Below are positions 1-12,246 of a stretch of DNA of 64,000 nt, one piece after another. Source of the stretch: Deltaproteobacteria bacterium (GTDB lineage: Bacteria > JAMCPX01); assembly GCA_023382265.1 (NCBI GenBank), contig JAMCPX010000007.1, positions 1 to 64,000 of the forward strand, in the 5' to 3' direction. Positions within the stretch are counted from its first letter, which is position 1, and each line of letters opens with the position of its first letter. The notes under the pieces were generated by a model that searched no databases, was not told where the DNA came from, and saw nothing but the letters and a program-made list of their open reading frames with translations. A program made the translations under genes and the position numbers.

Positions 1-173
1 ATAAAAAAAGCGGCAAGATTACAAAGAACATCAATTTTAAAGGTACAAACATCATCGGCTTCATGGCACCGATTGAAGTAGCCGGCAACCCGGAGCTTAT
101 AGAAATAGGTTACGAGGCGGGCTTCGGAGAGAAGGGAAGCATGGGGTTTGGGATGGTTAAAAGAACGGTTTAA
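1..173 (+). CDS. cas6: Cas6 CRISPR endoribonuclease, C-terminal end (gene cut by window edge)
   Basis: An open frame runs from the window edge (first full codon at base 3) to a TAA at 171-173, giving about 56 residues. The tail contains GYEAGFGEKGSMGFGMV, which matches the glycine-rich loop (G-x-G-x-x-x-x-x-G-x-G) near the end of RAMP-fold Cas6 proteins. Cas6 cuts the pre-crRNA inside the repeats and leaves the 5' handle on each crRNA. Its position directly before cas3 and in the same direction as the other cas genes supports the call. The catalytic N-terminal part lies outside the window, so active-site residues cannot be checked. Confidence 0.85.
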   Translation, partial: KKSGKITKNINFKGTNIIGFMAPIEVAGNPELIEIGYEAGFGEKGSMGFGMVKRTV

Positions 174-236
174 CAGAGGTTTTATGTTATTTACATGGAC
201 AGGAAATCCGTGGGTGGATATGGGGAAGAGGATAAA

Positions 237-2654
237 ATGGAATATACAAAATTTCAGAAACATGTAATCAACAAGTTAAAAAGTGGCAAGTCATTACTCC
301 TTATCGCTCCAACAGGTTTAGGAAAGACTCTTGCAGTTACAGGGGACATACAGGATAGCTTTTGCAAGATGGTATATGCCGTTCCACTGAGGTCACTCGG
401 CAAAGGCATTCAGAAAGAGATTTCGACCCTAAAAAGGGATGACAAAAGAATATCAGCCGTTATACATCACGGAGATATTCAGGAAAGCAAGTTGTTCGGT
501 GAAGAAGTTGTTATCACAACATATGATCAGGTTGTTTGTGCTGTTCCTGGCTTGCCGCTCAGTCTTCCGCTCAGGGCGGGACATGCCATAGCAGGGGCAT
601 TACTTATGTCACGCCTGATCTTGGACGAAACACATTTGGCTTGGAGTATCTCTGATAAGGCATTGTCAATATTGCTTGCCATAATAGATTTCAGACAAAA
701 ACTTGGTTTGCAAACCATCGTCCTAACTGCAACTTTGCCAAAAGAAGTGGCAACTCTTATTTCCAAACGATTGAAACTGGAATTGATAATAGTTGGCGAA
801 GGAGAGGTAGAGTCAGATGAAGGCTTGATACTCCGTGAAAATAATAGAAAAGTAACTATTTCAACCCTTGATTTAAAAAACAAAGGAAAGGGTAATGATA
901 AGAAGCTCGACTGGCAACCGCTGGATGACAAATTAAAGAATGCTAAGGGTAAACGCATATACTTTGCCAATACAGTAGAACGACTACAAACAACTTACGA
1001 CAGATTGATAGCATCCTCAACTATAAAAAAAGCCGACGAAATTATCGTCCTCCACAACCGAATGCCTCGTTCATGGAGAGCCGACGCAGAGCAGAGGTCG
1101 TACGATTGCTTTGGTAAGGGTTCACCCGATGGTGACCGGATTTTATTGACGAATCAGGTCGCAGAGGCAGGACTTGATATTTCCGCTCCATTAGTTATTT
1201 CTGATCCCGCTCCTGTGGATACACTGGTGCAAAGGGCTGGACGATGTGCCCGATGGTTCAGGAATAGTGAAACGAAAGGAGAATTTGTTGTTATTACTGC
1301 TCCCAAAACAGAAATTGAAGAAGGAAAGAAAGGATTAGCTCTTCCATACAAAGCTGCTTTGGTATTGGATGCTTTGCAAAAAAAACCAAATGGCCAAATG
1401 ACTTGGCAGGCAGAAAAAGAATGGGTTAATCAAGTGTGGGGCGGCGGTTCAGAGAAAGCCATGAAATCGGTAGAGGAATCTCTTAATGAAATTACCTTTG
1501 CTTTAAATCTTTTTGACCGTGCAGCACAAGAGCAGAAGCCTGGCCAGATTGCAGGTGCATTCCGTGAGATTTTGTCCGTTGAAGTTGCTGTTGAAGAAGG
1601 GGATTCTGTTCGCATAGACGATTTGGCACAACGAGACTTGCAAATTATGCTAATGCAAGGTCAACATCCGGAGACATCTTCTATTTCTCTTGGTAGGGCA
1701 TGGGCTTTAATCAGAAAATCGCAAGGTAAGTGTGCGGTAATCCGCTATAACGAACATGAAGACTTGGTTATTTCTCCGACTGATTCTGTAAGATTAGGTG
1801 ATGTCTTGATTGTTCCTTCATCTGTAGCCTACCTTCACAGAACAAAAGGTCTCTGTTTTGGCGATACAAATGAAATTAAAGGCGTATTTAGGTGCAGTGA
1901 TTGGCTGGCTAAGAAAGAAAGGTCAGGTGAACCTATTAAAAAAGAATATGGAAAGCAGCAAACCCTTTTGGAACACACATCAGGAGTAATGAAAGGAGTT
2001 TATCAGCGATTCACAAATGATGGTATGTACCGCTCCACGCTTAAGAACATTCTAAAATCCCTTGAACCCGAAAAAAATACAGAAACGCTTGCTAATATCG
2101 TTGCTTCTTTAAGTATGCTTGCTGCCGGTTTTCACGATTTAGGGAAAGCAGATAAAAATTGGCAAGCAAAAGCAGAAGAAATTGAAGGAAAACATTTCTC
2201 TGAACTTATAGGACGGACTTCAAAAATCGAAGGTCGAATAGGTGTTCCACATACGCCGCCTGGATATAATGCCATTGTAAAAGCTGCCGAATTGTTGATT
2301 GGTAATCTCGATTCAGCAGAATATTTAATTCGTTCGATTGCTCTTTCTGCTGCTCGCCACCATTCGAGTTTTTTAAATCCATCACAGGTAACTCATCATT
2401 TTGACCCGCATCCGCAAACTAATGAATTTATTAAAGCTGTCCTAAAAGCGGTTTCTGCTTCTGAAACAACAATAAAGCAATCTGATGAAATCCTCGAGGC
2501 AGCCAAAAAATCCCCAGCAAAAGAAGATGTGCCTCTGTTGTTACCTAATGTAGACCTTTTCCCTGTTTATGCCATTGTCGGGCGGGCAATTCTTATGGCT
2601 GACAGGGAAGATGCAGCAGGTGTGGAGTTAGAGATGTGGAGAACAAAACAATGA
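237..2654 (+). CDS. cas3: Cas3 helicase-nuclease with C-terminal HD domain
   Basis: This is the DNA-degrading effector of type I CRISPR interference: an SF2 helicase that unwinds target DNA plus an HD nuclease that cuts it. Helicase motif I is APTGLGKT (residues 24-31 from this start), the Walker B/DExH box is DETH (about 130-133), and motif VI is QRAGRCAR (about 345). The nuclease part follows the helicase, with FHDLGKADKNWQ near residue 650 and a later ARHHSS. In most Cas3 proteins the HD domain comes first, so this order is a marker of the subtype. ATG at 237 is preferred over 195 because GGGGAAGAGG lies six bases upstream. The end overlaps cas8 by four bases (ATGA). Confidence 0.93.
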   Translation: MEYTKFQKHVINKLKSGKSLLLIAPTGLGKTLAVTGDIQDSFCKMVYAVPLRSLGKGIQKEISTLKRDDKRISAVIHHGDIQESKLFGEEVVITTYDQVVCAVPGLPLSLPLRAGHAIAGALLMSRLILDETHLAWSISDKALSILLAIIDFRQKLGLQTIVLTATLPKEVATLISKRLKLELIIVGEGEVESDEGLILRENNRKVTISTLDLKNKGKGNDKKLDWQPLDDKLKNAKGKRIYFANTVERLQTTYDRLIASSTIKKADEIIVLHNRMPRSWRADAEQRSYDCFGKGSPDGDRILLTNQVAEAGLDISAPLVISDPAPVDTLVQRAGRCARWFRNSETKGEFVVITAPKTEIEEGKKGLALPYKAALVLDALQKKPNGQMTWQAEKEWVNQVWGGGSEKAMKSVEESLNEITFALNLFDRAAQEQKPGQIAGAFREILSVEVAVEEGDSVRIDDLAQRDLQIMLMQGQHPETSSISLGRAWALIRKSQGKCAVIRYNEHEDLVISPTDSVRLGDVLIVPSSVAYLHRTKGLCFGDTNEIKGVFRCSDWLAKKERSGEPIKKEYGKQQTLLEHTSGVMKGVYQRFTNDGMYRSTLKNILKSLEPEKNTETLANIVASLSMLAAGFHDLGKADKNWQAKAEEIEGKHFSELIGRTSKIEGRIGVPHTPPGYNAIVKAAELLIGNLDSAEYLIRSIALSAARHHSSFLNPSQVTHHFDPHPQTNEFIKAVLKAVSASETTIKQSDEILEAAKKSPAKEDVPLLLPNVDLFPVYAIVGRAILMADREDAAGVELEMWRTKQ

Positions 2655-4096
2655 TAGCTTTTGATTGGTCAAATGCTTCTTCGACATTACAGCATTTTGG
2701 CGGGAAGCCTGTTACATTATATGTGCAAAAGACAGGGTTACCGTTCTTTGATGTATTAAGGCTTTATGGCGCTATTGATTTGTACATTGGACTTCGAGAG
2801 GATGTTACTATACATGATGCTGGTAATGAATGGGAAGTTGCAGGAAGACAACGTGCTCATCTTTTAAAAGACAGAGATGTTGGCACTTTTAAACAAGTGT
2901 GGAATAAGAGAAAACCTGATGCCAAGAAATTTTGCGATTCCTTGCGCTCTCATATTTCTGAACGGCATCTTTCCTCTGACGACTATTTTATAGAGGGGAA
3001 AAAGAGCTATGATTCAACTTTACAGACAGGTATTAGAGGTATAGCTGCTTATAGTTACGAAACCTTGCAGACAGGTCAAACATCGAAGCCTGAATGTAAG
3101 GCTAATATCCCATTAGGTCAAGGAATGCTTGCCTTTGCAGGGGAGAAAAGAACAGAAAGTTTAGGAAACATTTTGTTTTTGCCTATCTTTGAGGGACAGA
3201 TTGACCTGTCCAAAGTTGTAAGTCCTTTGCGTGCCTGGCTTGGATTACCCAATGTAATTTGCTCTCAGACCTTGGCTTTATTATCTCTTAAATCATCCCT
3301 TTTGGGGGAAGGATACGAGGAACGGTTATCTGCGGTTGTTTTCAACACAAACCTTGGAAGCCAACGAAGCGACAATTATTCTGGTTTGATTTCAATAAAA
3401 TCAACAGCCATAAATAAAATTAAAACAGCCGATTTTGCTGCTCACCTATATCGTATGTTTAGAATATTAGTCAGCAAGGCTTGGAATAAACAAGGAAGAG
3501 AATACAAAGCTACAGAATTTGCACCTGATGCCATTGCAGTGGCTTATTGGCAGTTGCAACCTGTTGGCAAGCATCTGTCTTCAATGATTACATCGCAGGA
3601 GAGATTAAAAGCAAAAGGGAATCAATATGTTTTTACAAAACCTGAATATGTAAAGGAGGTATTTGATATGAGTTATGGAGATTGGAAAGGTGACCATGAA
3701 GCTGTGCAAAGGTTTGCCAAAGCCGTAGCATCAGCTATTTATTTTGCCAGACAGAGCAAGGCTGATAACAGTGAAAAAGGTAAGGTGTGGTATGACGAAG
3801 TTGTCATGCTCCGATCAGCGCCTTCACCAAGGGCTTTTTGCGAAAGAGCTTTAATCCTTTTGGAGCAAGGACATCGTGAGCATGGGCAGATCGGTACGGT
3901 TCACAGAGAGGAAGATTATGACCCTTCAGCGCTTATAGCAAGCATAGGAGAAGGACGAGATTTTGAGACTTTTCGTGACCTATTCAGAATGTACCTGATA
4001 CAGGAGAGTACATATAAATCGAAAGAATCTGAAGCAGAGGTATCAGATACAGATACCCCTGAAACAAATAATTCAGGAGAGGAGGAATTAAAATGA
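2651..4096 (+). CDS. cas8: Cas8-type large subunit of the type I Cascade complex
   Basis: A 481-residue protein between cas3 and cas7, the usual place of the large Cascade subunit, which recognises the PAM and helps open the target duplex. I see no standard catalytic motif, and the identification rests mainly on position, size and the Dev-like neighbours; DevT/Cmx8-like proteins are the closest guess. A GTG at 2636 is in frame, but the ATG at 2651 overlaps the cas3 stop as ATGA and has GGAG nine bases upstream, so it is the better start. The C-terminus is acidic, rich in Glu, Ser and Thr. It overlaps cas7 by ATGA at 4093-4096, which implies translational coupling. Confidence 0.75.
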   Translation: MIAFDWSNASSTLQHFGGKPVTLYVQKTGLPFFDVLRLYGAIDLYIGLREDVTIHDAGNEWEVAGRQRAHLLKDRDVGTFKQVWNKRKPDAKKFCDSLRSHISERHLSSDDYFIEGKKSYDSTLQTGIRGIAAYSYETLQTGQTSKPECKANIPLGQGMLAFAGEKRTESLGNILFLPIFEGQIDLSKVVSPLRAWLGLPNVICSQTLALLSLKSSLLGEGYEERLSAVVFNTNLGSQRSDNYSGLISIKSTAINKIKTADFAAHLYRMFRILVSKAWNKQGREYKATEFAPDAIAVAYWQLQPVGKHLSSMITSQERLKAKGNQYVFTKPEYVKEVFDMSYGDWKGDHEAVQRFAKAVASAIYFARQSKADNSEKGKVWYDEVVMLRSAPSPRAFCERALILLEQGHREHGQIGTVHREEDYDPSALIASIGEGRDFETFRDLFRMYLIQESTYKSKESEAEVSDTDTPETNNSGEEELK

Positions 4097-5154
4097 AACT
4101 ATGGAGTATATCTTTTGCCTATCGTTTAGGACTTGGTTTTCATGCATTGAATAATGAGGGATCTGATGGAAGCAATCTGATGCAGCCACGCCGTATTGAT
4201 GTTGGACAGGTGACTTACGATGGAATAAGCGGAGAAATTATCAGACGGCATATTTTGGAAAATTTTGTAGAAATATGCAGAAACCAAGAGCCCAAAATTC
4301 CTATGTTACCATTGAGTGAAGGGCTACATCCTGACAGGGGGCCAATTGGAATTCGTGCTGCTGCAAGAAATGGTAATACCTCTCCTGTTAAACTTAACGG
4401 AACTAATCTTTTCCAAAGCGTCAGAACAGCAATTGAGAAGTGTGCAGTTCTTGATGTCGGAGGTTTTCTTGCTGCATGGAAAGATGCCCAAGGTGAAGCT
4501 AATGCTGGTGATTATATAGCGGAAAAAGATTATATTGATCAGCACTGCGCTGAACTTGAAAAGGTTGATCCGGTAAAAAGAGAATCCTGTTTTGATGTGG
4601 CATGGCTGATTAGCGAAAATCCACAGGATTTGACTGTTACCCAGCATTCGGCATTTCGTGATACAGCTTCAATGAACAGTCGATATGCACAAAGCATGCG
4701 CTCCAATACCTATGGTGGTATCATTCGAGCTGATTTGCATAGAATAGGAACAGATGATTACTGGTATTTACAAAATAATAAACAGAGATTAGCTATCACA
4801 GAGGATGAACAGAAGAAACGCCAGAAAGCGATTATAGCGGCGATAATAAACTTCATTATCTCACCTACAGGATCAAAAACTGCAGGATGGGCTCCTCATG
4901 TATTTTTAACAGAAGGCGCAATTCTTCTTACATCTACCAGAACAGCTCCATTTGCCTCGCCGATAAAAGTGGATTTAACTGATCAAAACACGCCAGTAAA
5001 GGCAGATTCAACTTATGCAAATAAAATGGAAGATATTAAAAATGATACTGACACGTGGGTGTGGAAATTCAAAAATGCCAAAGAGCTTATTGATACGGTT
5101 TCGAAGATAACAGACACATTAGACGGGAAAAACGATGGCAAGAAAAAAAGCTAA
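4093..5154 (+). CDS. cas7: Cas7 backbone protein, Cst2/DevR family
   Basis: Cas7 polymerises along the crRNA to form the Cascade backbone. The N-terminus reads RLGLGFHALNNEGSDGSN followed by QPRRI; the LNNEG-x-x-G signature is characteristic of the Cst2/DevR branch of Cas7, named after DevR in Myxococcus fruiting-body development. At 353 residues the length fits the family. A strong Shine-Dalgarno (AGGAGAGGAGG) lies just before the ATG, unlike the weaker sites of the neighbours, which would fit the high Cas7 stoichiometry in Cascade. The ATG overlaps the cas8 stop, and the last 20 bases overlap cas5. Confidence 0.9.
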   Translation: MKLWSISFAYRLGLGFHALNNEGSDGSNLMQPRRIDVGQVTYDGISGEIIRRHILENFVEICRNQEPKIPMLPLSEGLHPDRGPIGIRAAARNGNTSPVKLNGTNLFQSVRTAIEKCAVLDVGGFLAAWKDAQGEANAGDYIAEKDYIDQHCAELEKVDPVKRESCFDVAWLISENPQDLTVTQHSAFRDTASMNSRYAQSMRSNTYGGIIRADLHRIGTDDYWYLQNNKQRLAITEDEQKKRQKAIIAAIINFIISPTGSKTAGWAPHVFLTEGAILLTSTRTAPFASPIKVDLTDQNTPVKADSTYANKMEDIKNDTDTWVWKFKNAKELIDTVSKITDTLDGKNDGKKKS

Positions 5155-5902
5155 AACGGATTCAAAAACAATTACGCCTGTTCCTGCACCACCGTTAATT
5201 TGGATCAAGGCAGCGTATAAGTTCCATACCTATGCCTATCGTGATCCCCGTTCTGCCTTTGCATCTGCAATGGGTTCGCCTGTTGTATCTCCGACAACGG
5301 TCCTACTTGGGATTGCATCAACTTTGTTCTCCATCGGAAAAGCTTGTGAAGCCAAGGCTTTTCTCGATATCGCCCAGCATTGCAAAGTTGTTGTGGATGC
5401 GCCTGACGGTGTAATATTTTTTAGAGCGTTCCATCAACTGAGACGATATGAGACTGGCGAAATGAAAGTAAAGAAAGAAAAATATAAACCAAATGAACGA
5501 ATTGGTTTAACAAAGATAAATCAAGGAACTCGTGAATACGGTTTGGTCGAGGGTCAAATTATTCTTTATGTTGGAATACCAGAAGAACATTATGAAGCAG
5601 TTAAATTGGCACTTACAAATTTAGGGCATTTTGGAACGCATGATTCTATGTGTTCATTAATTGGTAATGCTGAAAAGTGTTCTAAACCGGATAATGTGGT
5701 TTACATTCCGCCGGAACAGTGGGAAACTAGCATACCATCCGGTTCTACCGCTGTGACTCTTTCACGCTTTAAGAATGACGATATTAAACCAACTTTGTCT
5801 AACTGGTGGATGGCTGGGGGAGAAAATACAGAACGAGTTCAGTATTTTATTAAAGGTAAATTCGAAGGTACATCAAGAGGGAAAATATATAAAAAACATT
5901 GA
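5135..5902 (+). CDS. cas5: Cas5 Cascade subunit, DevS-like
   Basis: A 255-residue RAMP-type protein in the cas5 position directly after cas7. The region around residues 40-50 (AMGSPVVSPTT) matches the conserved Cas5 N-terminal segment, in which a small motif precedes the first RAMP helix. Cas5 binds the 5' handle of the crRNA and caps the Cascade backbone. The gene starts inside the end of cas7 (20-base overlap). Its stop at 5902 lies only eight bases before a truncated copy of cas4 sequence, which suggests cas4 once followed cas5 directly. Assignment to the DevS branch is inferred from the Cst2/DevR-type neighbour. Confidence 0.85.
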   Translation: MARKKAKTDSKTITPVPAPPLIWIKAAYKFHTYAYRDPRSAFASAMGSPVVSPTTVLLGIASTLFSIGKACEAKAFLDIAQHCKVVVDAPDGVIFFRAFHQLRRYETGEMKVKKEKYKPNERIGLTKINQGTREYGLVEGQIILYVGIPEEHYEAVKLALTNLGHFGTHDSMCSLIGNAEKCSKPDNVVYIPPEQWETSIPSGSTAVTLSRFKNDDIKPTLSNWWMAGGENTERVQYFIKGKFEGTSRGKIYKKH

Positions 5903-5909
5903 ATCAACC

Positions 5910-5972
5910 ATCACCGCAACTGCTTTCAATTACTTCTTCATCTGTCATCGCAAGCTGTGGTTGTTTGCGCAT
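5910..5972 (+). pseudogene. Relic copy of the cas4 5' region
   Basis: This 63-base stretch is a second copy of cas4 codons found intact at 6753-6815. The best part (5925-5972) matches in 46 of 48 positions, and the translations ITATAFNYFFICHRKLWLFAH and ITGTEFNYFFICHRKLWLFAH differ at only two of 21 residues. The copy has no start codon and runs into a stop at 5988-5990. The two copies are exactly 843 bases apart and bracket the DUF4258/DUF2283 pair, so an insertion or rearrangement separated cas5 from cas4 and left a partial duplication. Confidence 0.85.
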
Positions 5973-6079
5973 ATGGATAGGATAAATTGAGGAGATTAGG
6001 TTTTTATGTTATAAACCTTCTATTATAGCTTTTATGGATATTCAATGACTGAAAGGAATACAAATCTCATACAATTTAA

Positions 6080-6340
6080 ATGAATATTAAGTTTACAAAA
6101 CACGCAAAAGAAAGAGCGATTCAAAGAGGAGCTACAAAGCAAGAAATTGAAAATGTTCTTTTAGCAGGTATTGAATCATTGGCAAAAGGAAATAAAAAAT
6201 CAAAAGATATGGTTTTTGAGTATAATAGAGAATGGTTGGGCAAAATTTATCCACAAAAGAAAATAAAAGTGATATATGTTAAAGAAAGAAATGATATTAT
6301 AATTATTACAGTAAAAGTATTTTATGGCGAATGGAGGTAG
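6080..6340 (+). CDS. DUF4258 protein, toxin-like small protein in the cas operon
   Basis: An 86-residue protein beginning IKFTKHAKERAIQRGATKQEIENVL and ending in a strand-rich part with YPQKKIKVIYVKERNDII. This is the DUF4258 pattern: an FTxHAxxRxxxRG start followed by a beta-sheet with a conserved TV motif. DUF4258 proteins are often paired with DUF2283 proteins, as here with a six-base gap, and the pairs behave genomically like toxin-antitoxin modules; a toxic activity has not been shown to my knowledge. The gene is visibly more AT-rich than cas5 and cas1, which fits recent arrival. It has only a weak ribosome-binding site. Confidence 0.8.
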   Translation: MNIKFTKHAKERAIQRGATKQEIENVLLAGIESLAKGNKKSKDMVFEYNREWLGKIYPQKKIKVIYVKERNDIIIITVKVFYGEWR

Positions 6341-6346
6341 AATAAT

Positions 6347-6556
6347 ATGAAAATTACTTATGACCCTAAATATGATTTGCTCTATTTAAAAATGGGTGAA
6401 GCTAAAAAGGTTTTATGTAAAGAAGTTAACGATGATATAACCGTAGATATGGATGCTAAGGGAAAATTGATAGGCATTGAAATCCTTTCAGCATCGCAAC
6501 ATGTTGATCTAAAAATGCTGTTGCCGGTAGAAATCAAGAAAACAGCAGTGAGATGA
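6347..6556 (+). CDS. DUF2283 protein, antitoxin-like partner
   Basis: A 69-residue protein starting KITYDPKYDLLYLKMGEAKK and containing DITVDMDAKGKLIGIEILSAS, the typical DUF2283 pattern (YDPexDxLYixl, then D-x-x-G-x-lvGIEil-a). It follows the DUF4258 gene by six bases with GGAGG seven to eleven bases before the ATG, so the two are co-translated. The pairing recurs widely and resembles type II toxin-antitoxin modules, with DUF2283 as the presumed neutralising partner. That role is inferred from context. It lies between the relic and the intact copy of cas4. Confidence 0.8.
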   Translation: MKITYDPKYDLLYLKMGEAKKVLCKEVNDDITVDMDAKGKLIGIEILSASQHVDLKMLLPVEIKKTAVR

Positions 6557-6719
6557 ATTATCAATGAAGAAGTTAAGATACAAAAAGAGAATGTGTCTTA
6601 ACAAAGAATGGAAGCTGTTCTTGTCATTGGGCAATGCCATGTTTAACCTAATGCCGCTGAACTGGTTAATCTTGCAGAATAATTTTTAGAAGGCATTAAA
6701 AGATTTATTGCTTAGTAAT

Positions 6720-7232
6720 ATGGATATTTCGATCCCTTTTTCGCACCTACAGATCACCGGTACGGAATTCAATTACTTCTTCATCTGTCATCGCAAGCTG
6801 TGGCTGTTTGCACATGATATACAGATGGAGCAGGAGTCCGACAATGTGTACCTTGGCAATTTGATCCATGAACATTCGTATCCAAGAGAGAAAAAAGAGA
6901 TTATGATAGACGGCGTAATCAGGATTGATTTCCTTGATGATGGAGCTGTGCATGAGGTGAAGAAATCTGATAAAATGGAAGAATCTCATATATGGCAGGT
7001 GTTATATTACATTTATTGTCTCAGGCAAAAGGGTGTGGATATACGGAATGGAGTTATCAACTATCCCAAACAGAAACGTACCACGTCGGTAGAACTGACA
7101 CCTGAAAATGAAATTGAAATTACTCATACGCTCGTAAAAATAAAAGAAGTAGAGTCAATGCCACAACCTCCGGAGATTTTAAATACAAGGCTCTGTAAAA
7201 AGTGCGGCTATGAAGATTTCTGCTATTCCTAA
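6720..7232 (+). CDS. cas4: Cas4 RecB-like exonuclease of CRISPR adaptation
   Basis: Cas4 trims prespacers and selects those with a correct PAM before Cas1-Cas2 integration. The protein has a Cys at residue 24 (FFICHRKLWLF) and a C-terminal CKKCGYEDFC cluster, the four cysteines expected for the [4Fe-4S] site. The RecB-type nuclease core is RIDFLDDGAVHEVKKSD, with the Asp and E-x-K metal-site residues present. ATG at 6720 is chosen; an upstream TTG at 6708 is in frame but adds nothing conserved. The length of 170 residues is normal, so the gene appears intact despite the rearrangement next to it. It is followed by cas1 after 18 bases. Confidence 0.92.
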   Translation: MDISIPFSHLQITGTEFNYFFICHRKLWLFAHDIQMEQESDNVYLGNLIHEHSYPREKKEIMIDGVIRIDFLDDGAVHEVKKSDKMEESHIWQVLYYIYCLRQKGVDIRNGVINYPKQKRTTSVELTPENEIEITHTLVKIKEVESMPQPPEILNTRLCKKCGYEDFCYS

Positions 7233-7250: not shown

Positions 7251-8243
7251 ATGAAGCGTAACTACTACATTACAAAAAACGGCCGTTTAAAACGTCAGGA
7301 TAACACAGTTTATCTTGAATTTGAGTCAGGCGAAAAAAAGGTAATTCCTATAGAGGATGTGGAAGGCATTTATCTGATGGGTGAGATGGATCTGAATACC
7401 AAGCTTCTCAATTTTCTGGCACAGCAAAAAATTCCAGTGCATGTATTCAATTACTACGGCTATTACTCAGGCTCATATTATCCGAGAGAGCATCTGAATT
7501 CCGGTTTTCTCCTTGTCAATCAGGTGGAAAGCTATAAGAATCAGGAAAAGCGGCTTGTCATCGCAAAGGAATTTATATTGAGCGCCTCGCACAATATTCT
7601 CAGAAATCTTAAATATTACCAGAGCCGCCAATCAGGTCTCGAGGGTTACATAACTGATATCGAAGCAAAGATCCCAGAATTAGAGAAAGCCCCTGGTATT
7701 CAGGAACTCATGGCATGGGAAGGCCATGTAAGGGAGCGCTATTATGATAGTTTCAATGTCATTCTTAATCTCAAGGAAGAATTTACCAAACGGACAAAGA
7801 GACCGCCCGACAACATGATGAATGCACTTATATCGTTCGGCAATTCCCTGTTATATGCAACAACACTTGGTGAGATCTATCATACCCAGCTTAATCCCAC
7901 TATAAGTTTTCTTCACGAGCCTGGCAACCGAAGATTTTCGCTCAGTCTGGACATATCCGAGGTATTCAAACCTATTATCGTTGATCATGTAATATTCAAA
8001 CTGATCAATACCGGCATGCTTGATAATACGGATTTCGATAAGGACATAAACTTCTGCTATCTCACCGAAAAGGGCAGGAAGATTTTTCTCAGGGAATATG
8101 ACGAGCGCCTCGACACGACAATCAAGCATAGAACACTGAAGCGGAATGTTTCTTACCGACACATGATTCGGCTGGAATGTTATAATCTTGAGAAATGTAT
8201 TGCGGGTATCGATGAATATAAAGGGTTTAGGGCATGGTGGTAA
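7251..8243 (+). CDS. cas1: Cas1 CRISPR integrase
   Basis: Cas1, with Cas2, inserts new spacers at the leader end of the array. The 330-residue protein starts with the N-terminal beta-domain typical of Cas1 (YYITKNGRLKRQDNTVYLE, then IPIEDVEGIYLMGEMDLN). The metal-binding active site is visible as the Glu in AWEGHVRERYYDSF (around residue 160), the His in LHEPGNRRFSLSLDISE, and the downstream Asp/Glu in that same stretch. It resembles Cas1 proteins of type I-A/I-B systems with a separate cas4. There is no sign of truncation. Confidence 0.95.
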   Translation: MKRNYYITKNGRLKRQDNTVYLEFESGEKKVIPIEDVEGIYLMGEMDLNTKLLNFLAQQKIPVHVFNYYGYYSGSYYPREHLNSGFLLVNQVESYKNQEKRLVIAKEFILSASHNILRNLKYYQSRQSGLEGYITDIEAKIPELEKAPGIQELMAWEGHVRERYYDSFNVILNLKEEFTKRTKRPPDNMMNALISFGNSLLYATTLGEIYHTQLNPTISFLHEPGNRRFSLSLDISEVFKPIIVDHVIFKLINTGMLDNTDFDKDINFCYLTEKGRKIFLREYDERLDTTIKHRTLKRNVSYRHMIRLECYNLEKCIAGIDEYKGFRAWW

Positions 8244-8294: not shown

Positions 8295-8558
8295 ATGTAT
8301 GTGATTCTGGTATACGATGTAAAAGAAAATAGGGTACAGAAAGTACATAAGCTTTTGAAACGGTATCTGAACTGGGTGCAGAATTCAGTTTTTGAAGGGG
8401 AACTTACAGAAGGACAGTTCGAGGCGATGAAGATAGATGTTAAGGAACGTATGAAAACAGAAGAGGATTCTGTAATCATTTATAAGCTCGGCAGCTTGAA
8501 GTATACAGATCGTGAGATAGTTGGCGTTGAAAAGAATTTGACAGATAACCTATTGTAG
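8295..8558 (+). CDS. cas2: Cas2 adaptation protein
   Basis: A small ferredoxin-fold protein (87 residues from this start) beginning MYVILVYDVKENRVQKVHKLLKRY, the classic Cas2 start with the conserved Asp after the first strand. The middle segment LNWVQNSVFEGELTEGQ is also typical. Cas2 bridges two Cas1 dimers in the spacer integrase. The open frame extends ten codons further upstream to an ATG at 8265, but the conserved protein begins at 8295. The array leader starts immediately after the stop. Confidence 0.93.
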   Translation: MYVILVYDVKENRVQKVHKLLKRYLNWVQNSVFEGELTEGQFEAMKIDVKERMKTEEDSVIIYKLGSLKYTDREIVGVEKNLTDNLL

Positions 8559-8675
8559 GTATAATTCTATCAGGAAAGTCGTCGAGGATACGGAGTTTTT
8601 ACATGATCAGAGGTAGACAGATGGTTTTGTGTTCTTTGACAACTTAATATGCTGTTTTTTCGGCAAAAATTTTGC
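8559..8675 (+). promoter_or_regulatory. CRISPR leader
   Basis: These 117 bases separate cas2 from the first repeat and are the only place for the array promoter and for the sequence that directs new spacers to the first repeat. A TTGACA lies at 8636-8641 and an AT-rich TTAATAT at 8645-8651, but they are not spaced as a standard -35/-10 pair, so I do not fix a start point. The orientation is supported by the repeat ending in GAAAC, as in related type I repeats with an 8-base 5' handle. Confidence 0.65.
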
Positions 8676-10025
8676 CTTTTAATCGCACCAGTATGGAATT
8701 GAAACTATATGCTGTTAAATGTCCCCACCGAACCCCTAACTTTTAATCGCACCAGTATGGAATTGAAACTTCTTTGCAGTTATTTCGTCAATTTTACCTG
8801 TAATTCTTTTAATCGCACCAGTATGGAATTGAAACGTAGATAATAAACTACTGTGTCCTAAAAGTTCTTTCACTTTTAATCGCACCAGTATGGAATTGAA
8901 ACCAGACTCAACCGATCCTACAAAACGACCTTTATCCTCTTTTAATCGCACCAGTATGGAATTGAAACAGCATCAACGATATTCGGGACTCGTCATTCGT
9001 CGGTCCTTTTAATCGCACCAGTATGGAATTGAAACAATATCGTTGATGCTCGGCTCACCATCTTCTTTGCTCTTTTAATCGCACCAGTATGGAATTGAAA
9101 CTATAAAAGATGGCTTAGAAGAGGCTATAATTCTGTCTTTTAATCGCACCAGTATGGAATTGAAACCACTCAGTTGGGCGGCAAATTATGGGTATGTCGA
9201 TCTTTTAATCGCACCAGTATGGAATTGAAACGACATTTTTTCAGAAGAACCTGCTTCAGATGCACCCTTTTAATCGCACCAGTATGGAATTGAAACTTTG
9301 GTCCCATGCTACACCTCACCTATCAGGTTTTTCTTTTAATCGCACCAGTATGGAATTGAAACATATATATATATGAACTCGGAAACTTTTAAAAACATCT
9401 TTTAATCGCACCAGTATGGAATTGAAACGCGATAATAAATAATCGTTAATGTCGTCAAGTATTACTTTTAATCGCACCAGTATGGAATTGAAACCGCTCC
9501 CCGCCTGCGGCGTGCCAGGCGCGGACAACTTTTAATCGCACCAGTATGGAATTGAAACTTACCTGCCGCCCAGCTGAGTGCGGTATCGCCGTACCTTTTA
9601 ATCGCACCAGTATGGAATTGAAACTTATCATAAAAAAAGATGAATGCAATTGTGATATTAATCTTTTAATCGCACCAGTATGGAATTGAAACTAAATAGT
9701 ATAGCCTCCAGTATCATGTGGATCGTCTGACTTTTAATCGCACCAGTATGGAATTGAAACTGATCTCTCGTCTGGGCTTTGGGAGTTAGATAGCTCTTTT
9801 AATCGCACCAGTATGGAATTGAAACCTCGTATATTATCTGCTGATAGGTATTGGGCACGCTCCTTTTAATCGCACCAGTATGGAATTGAAACCCTGCAAT
9901 GCAGGACCGCCACGATAGCGCAATGAAGCTTTTAATCGCACCAGTATGGAATTGAAACAAAATCTCAGCAGGCTCGGAAGATTTAGACAAGTACACTTTT
10001 AATCGCACCAGTATGGAATTGAAAC
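8676..10025 (+). CRISPR. CRISPR array, 21 repeats of 30 bases and 20 spacers
   Basis: The 30-base repeat begins CTTTTAATCG and ends GAATTGAAAC; all 21 copies read as identical. Starts are at 8676, 8740, 8806, 8873, 8939, 9006, 9072, 9137, 9202, 9267, 9333, 9399, 9465, 9529, 9595, 9663, 9731, 9796, 9863, 9929 and 9996. The 20 spacers are 34-38 bases long. The predicted crRNA handle is ATTGAAAC. Identical repeats, with no decay even at the far end, suggest a working array; a single altered repeat (11871-11900) lies beyond an interrupting phage block. Several spacers translate into phage or mobile-element motifs (see findings). Confidence 0.99.
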
Positions 10026-10054
10026 TTATTTAATATTGAACCCGTCAAATTTAA

Positions 10055-10354
10055 CATCGCCTTTTTGACTTTATTATTATTTGTGTTGCAGGATTTATCA
10101 TACTTTGGTTTATAAGAGAATCTTTTAAATCCCTTAGGCAGATATTAATTGTTGTTGCCAAAATCATTCGCTATATAATAGATGTCTTTCCTCATTCTAC
10201 AAAGAAAATTAAAGAAAGTTTTGCCGAGACTATTACTGTTCAGAAGACAAAAGGCATAAGCATTGTAACCAAAATCGCGATTGGGGTTTTTATTGGCTTC
10301 TTTGGATTGCTTGCCATTTTTTTGATATATGCAAGTCTAACGCCTACACCCTAA
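10055..10354 (+). pseudogene. Membrane protein gene, 5' end missing
   Basis: An open frame of 99 codons without any ATG, GTG or TTG near its start runs from a stop at 10052-10054 to TAA at 10352-10354. It encodes a hydrophobic segment near the front (IIICVAGFIILWF), a charged middle, and a second hydrophobic segment close to the C-terminus (IAIGVFIGFFGLLAIFLIYAS). The missing start and the position 30 bases after the last array repeat indicate that its 5' part was lost when the array and phage DNA were joined. It converges on and overlaps the gpG gene by a few bases. I do not recognise the family. Confidence 0.5.
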
Positions 10355-10806
10355 TCCACTTTTAACGCCGCTTCAATAGCCTCTATAATCTCATTTATAT
10401 CGTCATTATCCAGGACGAGGAAGGGATGCGCGGGAATGCGGGCGCTCTGGTTTCTGCCGGCAAGTCCGCCGAATTGATGGATTGCGGCATAAGCTTTATT
10501 TGTTCCAACCGATGCGCTGTTGGCATCGAAATCGGTTGTCACAGATGAAGCAAGCGAGCCGGTGCGCTGGAGCATTTGCCCGGGCCAGTGCCCTTGTTTC
10601 TCACGCTGTTTTATTGTCGAGAGTGCAAGAGGCAGCCAGTGGTCATGGCGGCCTTCCTTCTCAAAGTTTTGTTCCACCGCATCAGCCATGATGCCGGCGA
10701 TTTTGCGCATGACCGGCGTCATATCCTTGCTGGTTGCCTCCAGCTGCTTGAGTAGCTTCACGACATCACGGTCGTCTATGTGCACGTATATGGTAGTTTC
10801 ACTCAT
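10351..10806 (-). CDS. Phage virion morphogenesis protein, Mu gpG-like
   Basis: A 151-residue protein with the layout of the phage virion morphogenesis (gpG / tail completion S) family. It has a short N-terminal helix pair, then QNFEKEGRHDHWLPLALSTI and QREKQGHWPGQMLQRTGSL, then AYAAIHQFGG and a late RIPAHPFLVLD segment. These conserved blocks (F-x-x-E-G, W-x-x-L-x-x-x-T, I-L-x-x-T-G-x-L, A-x-I-H-Q-F-G-G, I-P-A-R-P-F-L) are all present, so the reading frame looks intact. In Mu-like phages this gene follows gpF, as here. No other structural genes follow, so it cannot form particles alone. Confidence 0.85.
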   Translation of the reverse strand: MSETTIYVHIDDRDVVKLLKQLEATSKDMTPVMRKIAGIMADAVEQNFEKEGRHDHWLPLALSTIKQREKQGHWPGQMLQRTGSLASSVTTDFDANSASVGTNKAYAAIHQFGGLAGRNQSARIPAHPFLVLDNDDINEIIEAIEAALKVD

Positions 10807-10917
10807 TTTGACATAACCTTTTTTTGGTGTATATATTATAATAATTATCAGGAATCATCGATACTGCCGCTTGCGGCGGTGCAACCTTATCCGGGGCTTT
10901 GGTCGGTGGTTCCTTTT

Positions 10918-11430
10918 TTATTTTTTTATACTCTTTGGAAACAACAATGTCCCAGTGCGCTGTTTGTTCAGGTAATCCAGATTCCCGGGCTGAAAAGTAG
11001 TTGTTCCCTGCCATGTACCATTAATATTATCAAAGACTGCATATCCGCCGATCTTCCCGCTGGCGTCTTTATATATGCCGATATATCGTCGGCACAGCCG
11101 CCATTTACCGTCTTGCGTTTGTACAAAGGTCTCCCAGATTTCAGAAGGATGTTTTATCGTATCAGCAAGCATAGGGAGGTAAATCTCCCGGTCGGCCTGA
11201 AAGACTTTATAATCTTTATATTGATCCTGGACCGGCTTACTTTTGTCTCTTGTAAAAAGAGCATCAGAAACCACAAGTGGAACGTTTGCATCGTCCGTAA
11301 AAACCACCGGTGGGGCACCTACTTTTGTTCCAAAAATATTCAGAAATTTATCGATGTACTGTATAGGCGTATCGTTACTCTGTTGATGAGCAGGTTGTAT
11401 GAGGGCCGTTGTAAGCGGCGCGGCATACAT
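10918..11430 (-). CDS. PBECR2-like phage nuclease-domain protein
   Basis: A 170-residue protein matching the phage Barnase-EndoU-ColicinE5/D-RelE-like nuclease group (PBECR2 as I remember it): FLNIFGTKVGAPPVVFTDD near residue 30, then PLVVSDALF, LADTIKHPSEIW, KWRLCRRYIGIY and a C-terminal TWQGTTTFQPG with YLNKQRTGTLLF. In Mu-like phages this domain is usually fused to the C-terminus of gpF or lies next to it. Here it is separate, five bases after the gpF stop. The family is predicted to be RNA-cleaving and may act during or after DNA ejection; that function is prediction. Confidence 0.7.
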   Translation of the reverse strand: MYAAPLTTALIQPAHQQSNDTPIQYIDKFLNIFGTKVGAPPVVFTDDANVPLVVSDALFTRDKSKPVQDQYKDYKVFQADREIYLPMLADTIKHPSEIWETFVQTQDGKWRLCRRYIGIYKDASGKIGGYAVFDNINGTWQGTTTFQPGNLDYLNKQRTGTLLFPKSIKK

Positions 11431-11434
11431 ATTA

Positions 11435-11870
11435 CTACAGGGGATCGTCGAGGGGAGTATATATGCCGGTTGATTTGTATGGAGGTGGTGTTGGTTTGAG
11501 CGTAAAAGGCGCCATGTCGTCGCGACCAGGGCAGTAGCTCCAGCCTTTGTCCGGAGCGATATCCATACCGGTGACCGGGTCGTGAAATGTTGTCACCGGA
11601 ACTTTCTCATTCGAGCCTTTGCTGAGCGGCTCATAAGTCGTACTCATATTCCCCGCCGACGATTCCACCTTTGCACCGCTACGTTTCAGGGCGCTCTCGC
11701 TCAGGGCTGCCGTACGGCAACGGCAATTAAATCCGTTCGGGGGAAAGTGGGAGCGCCAGAATGGATCATCATACCGAAACACTATGCCGTTAAGTGCCGC
11801 GTGCGTGGGACGTGTCTTTGCATCCATAACCGCGACATACTCCCAGTATGGACGATCTGCCGCCATATCA
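11435..11870 (-). pseudogene. Mu gpF-like phage head protein, N-terminus lost
   Basis: The frame encodes the conserved C-terminal part of the gpF head morphogenesis family: RPYWEYVAVMDAKTRPTHAAL, then DDPFWRSHFPPNGFNCRCR. The usual N-terminal two thirds (over 200 residues) are missing. Upstream, the frame runs directly into the reverse complement of a CRISPR repeat (11871-11900) and opens formally at 11926, giving a meaningless hybrid start. The break is at the exact repeat edge, so the gene was cut by the event that joined phage DNA to the array. Confidence 0.85.
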
Positions 11871-11900
11871 CTTTTAATCTCACCAGTATGGAATTGAAAC
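11871..11900 (+). repeat. Detached CRISPR repeat, one mismatch
   Basis: This 30-base unit matches the array repeat at 29 of 30 positions (CTTTTAATCT instead of CTTTTAATCG at its start) and has the same orientation. It lies 1845 bases beyond repeat 21. Terminal repeats are often slightly degenerate, so this is probably the original last repeat of the array. Because phage DNA, not a repeat, lies on its left, the sequence before it cannot be processed into a crRNA with a normal 5' handle. Confidence 0.95.
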
Positions 11901-12246
11901 TTCCGTGACAATTCCCGTGGATACAATTAACCCAAAAAATACAATAGGGCAGATTTAAAGATACAAACCTTTTGCAAGCCCTTCTGAGATCAAAAAGAGA
12001 GAAACGAAAGCGTGGCTATTGAAGATAAGATTTCACTTAAAAAATACCGCCCAAAATAGGTTCTCTGAGAACATTTTCTATGAACCCCGTTAGAAAAGAC
12101 ATGGCTTTTGTCCTTTTTTTTTGCACTATGCAGGCAGACAGTTTTAAGACTCCGAACCCTTTTCACTGCCGTGTCTGGGAATATTGTTTGCAATCAACAG
12201 GTTGGAAAGCTTTTAGTCCAGTGGGTTGAAAGATCTTTATAACCAA
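11901..12246. other. Gene-free stretch after the detached repeat
   Basis: These 346 bases are the trailer of the CRISPR locus up to the next gene. A 67-codon frame exists on the - strand (11990-12193), but it has no recognisable motif, no ribosome-binding site and an unusual composition. I see no further repeat copy, tRNA or clear terminator. Confidence 0.5.

Follow-up and report, generated by a model that had tools for sequence, protein, structure and literature searches.

Only two pairs among the 20 spacers of the CRISPR array described here, spacers 8 and 14 and spacers 5 and 6, overlap beyond chance. The first of these pairs is likely, if not proven, to derive from DNA coding for ankyrin repeats, and we hold with good confidence that spacers 8 and 14 would be ordinary type I spacers taken from an invading phage or mobile element with ankyrin DNA, most likely from two repeats of one gene. 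The array lies in a 64,000-nucleotide stretch of DNA from a member of the Deltaproteobacteria; this whole stretch is referred to below as the window, and all positions are counted from its first base.

Overlap and ankyrin reading of spacers 8 and 14

Spacer 8 (9167..9201, plus strand, 35 nt) reads LSWAANYGYVD in its third frame on the plus strand, so that its crRNA would be in the coding sense of an ankyrin-like frame, while spacer 14 (9559..9594, 36 nt) is read on the minus strand, the second frame of its reverse complement giving YGDTALSWAAG. The block that spacer 8 has in common with the reverse complement of spacer 14, CACTCAG[T/C]TGGGCGGCA, is identical at 16 of 17 positions. The coordinates, shared block and open frames on which the original prediction was built were all reproduced; of the peptide that it gave for spacer 8, the leading A requires one base from the PAM side. 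The 20 spacers that have intact repeats on both sides were compared with one another in both orientations (190 pairs), a 21st that lacks a closing intact repeat being left aside. Pair 5/6 scored 15 (15/15 identical), pair 8/14 scored 14 and the third-best pair 9; the top score in 400 dinucleotide-preserving shuffled sets was 13, and none of the 400 reached either of the two leading pairs.

The simplest source of the pair 8/14 is two repeats of one gene. An identity of 16/17 falls within the range of two repeats of a single gene, since at least 16 of the matching 17 bases agree in 5 of 78 repeat pairs of one ankyrin gene of the host (C58) and in 1 of 28 of another (C72). The single T/C difference within an otherwise identical core, the opposite strands and the common PAM geometry would also be expected if both spacers had been taken from a single site that is present in diverged strains of one virus, re-acquired after escape, and we give this variant perhaps one chance in a handful or slightly better. 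It is disfavoured, not decisively, by the divergence of the two sequences right after the core (GGTAA versus AATTA), where the codons differ from repeat to repeat within single ankyrin genes of the host.

The ankyrin reading itself was assessed by scoring the open spacer frames on a profile built from 9 ankyrin repeats in proteins of the host itself. Spacer 8 scored 13.9 bits and spacer 14 scored 12.5, ranking first and second, and the next spacer frame reached 5.2; 9 and 21 of 19,476 random 36-mers from the window equalled the scores of spacers 8 and 14, respectively. The best score in 200 shuffled spacer sets was 14.9, above that of spacer 8, with the 95% point at 11.3. In 1000 further shuffled sets, one spacer scored at least 13.87 in 7 sets and at least 12.54 in 20. 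On a second and thinner profile, made from only 6 repeats of relatives, spacers 8 and 14 again ranked first, and on both profiles the Leu of the two peptides sits in one column. The possibility that the frames are coincidental, with spacers 8 and 14 coming from related non-ankyrin DNA and resembling ankyrin peptides by chance, gains something from the length of the peptides, which is 11 residues, and from the thinner profile, on which 157 and 383 of 19,474 random 36-mers score as well as the two spacers. It is nevertheless improbable, given that the spacers hold ranks 1 and 2 on two profiles and that two scores of at least 12.54 occurred together in none of the 1000 shuffled sets. What makes the ankyrin reading likely is that two peptides in one register share DNA in the same frame. 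Ankyrin-type coding DNA, the source proposed in the original prediction, is in this way backed by both profiles, strongly by that of the host and more weakly by that of the relatives.

The CRISPR-Cas locus and its PAM

In the array (8676..10025, plus strand), a 30-nt repeat, CTTTTAATCGCACCAGTATGGAATTGAAAC, occurs 21 times without variation and separates 20 spacers, each 34-38 nt long. The last bases of the repeat, ATTGAAAC, form the crRNA handle with which many repeats of types I and III terminate on their 3′ side (PMC8482600). This ending suggests that the array is read from left to right with its leader beside cas2, and the leader would then occupy 8559..8675 (plus strand), between cas2 and the first repeat. 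An outlying repeat with one mismatch lies further on, at 11871..11900 (plus strand), beyond a phage-like fragment. The interval 10026-11930, between the array and this repeat, carries genes of Mu-like phage type, all read on the minus strand, namely a tail-completion protein (10351-10806), a PBECR2 nuclease domain (10918-11430) and a truncated MuF (11435-11926). MuF homology starts right at the edge of the outlying repeat, so the phage gene seems to be cut there. We looked for a second copy of the fragment in the host genome and found none; it may be captured phage DNA flanked by repeats, a scar left by recombination or an assembly error.

The locus is a type I CRISPR-Cas system, with cas3, Cascade genes and cas1-cas2 beside the repeat-spacer array, cas5 being assigned by position only. 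The window starts inside cas6, and cas3, cas8, cas7, the probable cas5, cas4, cas1 and cas2 follow up to 8558, all on the plus strand. The lack of a PF10040 match had suggested that cas6 is missing; TIGR01877 located the gene, split across two contigs, with its 3′ part at 21..161 of the window (C7:21-161, below the cut-off when taken alone) and its 5′ part at the end of contig C1 (C1:63973-64566), which overlaps the start of the window by 127 identical bases. Pfam, NCBIfam and PADLOC all recognise cas3 (195..2654), in which the helicase domains come first and the HD nuclease domain is C-terminal, as well as cas7 of the DevR family (4093..5154) and cas4 (6708..7232). The large subunit, cas8 (2636..4096), gave a weak PADLOC match to Cas8a (E 1.6e-14) and none in Pfam or NCBIfam. 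Gene order places the probable cas5 at 5135..5902, where the Pfam, NCBIfam and PADLOC family searches found no match; we take it to be cas5 from its position. The adaptation genes are completed by cas1 of the type I-B class (7251..8243; TIGR03641, 462 bits against a cut-off of 304) and cas2 (8295..8558; TIGR01573 and PADLOC Cas2b). A DUF4258-DUF2283 gene pair, which we presume to be toxin-antitoxin-like, interrupts the operon between cas5 and cas4 (5910-6815); it is flanked by a 63-nt direct repeat whose copies are 89% identical, the second lying near the 5′ end of cas4.

Support for a PAM of the form 5′-CCN, with CC one base before the protospacer on the crRNA-sense strand, comes from both overlapping pairs. 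Spacers 5 (8969..9005) and 6 (9036..9071), both on the plus strand, overlap at their starts on opposite strands, the first 15 bases of spacer 5 being the reverse complement of those of spacer 6, and each therefore holds the 5′ flank of the other. Read in this way, CCG directly precedes spacer 5 and also spacer 6; joined, the two give 58 known bases, with the merged frame SKEDGEPSINDIRDSSFVG. Spacer 14 shows CCG ahead of the core of spacer 8, and spacer 8 shows CCA at the flank position of spacer 14, these flanks being those of a related site rather than of the true protospacers; the PAMs would accordingly be CCG for spacer 8 and CCN for spacer 14. CC makes up 4.7% of the dinucleotides in the window. 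A CCN PAM had been proposed from the sequence next to spacers 8 and 14, where we confirm CC, and spacers 5 and 6 add independent support. As a small point of method, overlapping spacers on opposite strands expose each other's flanks, and the pair 5/6 yields a PAM without a known target. CCN is listed as a PAM for types I-A and I-B (PMC8482600), and the new spacers of the C. difficile I-B system come mostly from plasmid sites with a CCN flank (PMC8406132).

Search for the target and origin of the spacers

No contig carrying either protospacer was found in the collections searched, which were IMG/VR, the GTDB contigs, phages, plasmids and 9 genomes of the host phylum, and which may omit near relatives of this genome. 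In IMG/VR, the exact 17-mer core had 4 matches, which differ from spacer 8 at 11-16 positions and from spacer 14 at 13-17; none lies in an evident ankyrin frame as judged by eye, and their number is about that expected by chance on a rough estimate from the approximate size of the collection. The same collection gave no match to degenerate amino-acid-level patterns for spacers 8 and 14, to their exact 21-base outer parts, to the bases shared by spacers 5 and 6, to a degenerate pattern of the 5/6 merged frame or to an exact pattern for part of spacer 3. A 20-mer made of CCG and the core was absent from the GTDB genome contigs. Searched against phages and plasmids, the whole array gave short, weak matches, neither spacer 8 nor spacer 14 being fully covered among the matches listed (best 20 of 35 phage records); with the two spacers alone, 80% coverage was reached nowhere among the matches listed (in one search, the best 10 of 24 plasmid records). 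The widest match to a phage or plasmid among those listed, on a Novosphingobium plasmid, covers 78% of spacer 14 at 89% identity. Most of these scans used exact patterns and could thus miss a diverged protospacer, and the genus-level search covered the host genome only. An ankyrin gene with both sites, as envisaged in the original prediction, did not turn up in these searches. Nor did an exact match of the spacers to non-ankyrin sequence, the finding that it had named as counting against the ankyrin reading, or any near-full-length match of either spacer. With the protospacer found in none of these collections, the identity of the target rests on two 11-residue peptides.

The original prediction had also raised the risk of self-targeting, which is not supported by sequence comparison with the host. 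Ankyrin matches are present on three contigs of the host, and in its three ankyrin genes even the closest stretch differs from spacer 8, and likewise from spacer 14, at 16 of the 35-36 positions. TALSWAA is not read in any of the 21 repeats listed for the two large ankyrin genes, whose cores match spacer 8 at no more than 9 of 17 bases. Outside the array, the host genome has no match to spacer 8 with up to 3 mismatches, and BLAST with E up to 10 returned no match over spacer 8 or 14; both the exact 17-base core and its 20-base form with up to 2 mismatches are absent outside the array from the host and from the other 8 genomes of its phylum. A TALSWAA-type pattern run over the 9 genomes recovered spacer 14 itself and one match in another genome (G006), whose frame is broken by stops. 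That the spacers derive from ankyrin genes on the chromosome of the host or a close relative, and so record self- or kin-targeting, is therefore very unlikely: ankyrin matches do occur in all 9 genomes examined of the phylum, but 24 ankyrin loci taken from the genomes other than the host's differ from spacer 8 by at least 13 mismatches and from spacer 14 by at least 12.

The default reading is that the target lies on a phage or other mobile element; the source may instead be plasmid-borne or lie on the chromosome of another strain. In the explanation that we favour, spacers 8 and 14 would both have been cut from DNA that encodes the TALxxAA helix of ankyrin repeats. This DNA would most likely belong to two repeats of one multi-repeat gene (or to related genes), carried into this lineage by an invading phage or other mobile element not present in the collections searched. 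Cas4-Cas1-Cas2 would have picked CCN-flanked sites twice, from opposite strands; with the leader beside cas2, spacer 14 would be the older acquisition, from one strand, and spacer 8 the newer, from the other, and the resulting crRNAs would guide Cascade and Cas3 back to the ankyrin gene. The opposite-strand pairs 8/14 and 5/6 fit repeated or primed acquisition as known for type I systems, priming being a candidate only.

Three further sites in the array bear a resemblance to genes of mobile elements when judged by eye. The reverse complement of spacer 3 (8836-8872) reads KELLGHSSLLS, which we take to resemble the motif at the C-terminus of tyrosine recombinases; spacers 5 and 6 taken together (8969-9071), translated as above, presumably resemble a motif of DnaB-like replicative helicases; and the reverse complement of spacer 16 (9693-9730) reads SDDPHDTGGYTI, in our view similar to a phage lysozyme-type motif. 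If right, these leads are consistent with an origin of the spacers in phages or mobile elements.

The lineage of the host is represented among 10 named records for its DNA ligase by a closest match labelled 'bacterium', a MAG with 88% identity, followed by four at 77-82% (three 'bacterium' MAGs and one Deltaproteobacteria). Should the target be a phage, spacers 8 and 14 would be the sole trace that the searches gave of a virus of this phylum with an ankyrin gene, and would provide two short baits for it. More speculatively, a virus of this sparsely sampled phylum might carry a multi-repeat ankyrin gene against which the host was repeatedly immunised from both strands, and whose near-identical repeats would offer several sites to Cascade, so that the gene would be targeted again and again and would be a point of vulnerability for the virus; we put this forward as a tentative scenario.

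Comparison with known systems

Overall, spacers 8 and 14 represent a sound observation with an ordinary mechanism, an ordinary antiviral record that very probably comes from ankyrin-repeat DNA. The locus resembles type I-B and I-A systems with a CCN PAM in its adaptation genes of the Cas1b, Cas2b and Cas4b classes, its DevR-family Cas7, its Cas8a-like large subunit, the ATTGAAAC end of its repeats, its 34-38 nt spacers and the CC in the reconstructed flanks. It differs from them in three respects. The subtype signals are mixed, Cas1b, Cas2b and Cas4b being the best matches for the adaptation genes, with cas1 in the I-B class, while the large subunit matches Cas8a only, and weakly; the HD domain of Cas3 is at the C-terminus; and the DUF4258-DUF2283 pair separates cas5 from cas4.

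Phage WO of Wolbachia is an ankyrin-carrying phage. Phages with ankyrin-repeat genes are further known from sponges, as the 'Ankyphages' (PMC8777954). Among the papers listed from the literature on ankyrin, none on spacers against ankyrin genes was found. For the putative invader considered here, the collections searched gave no viral contig with the site; Ankyphages and phage WO would be the kind of invader that spacers 8 and 14 record.
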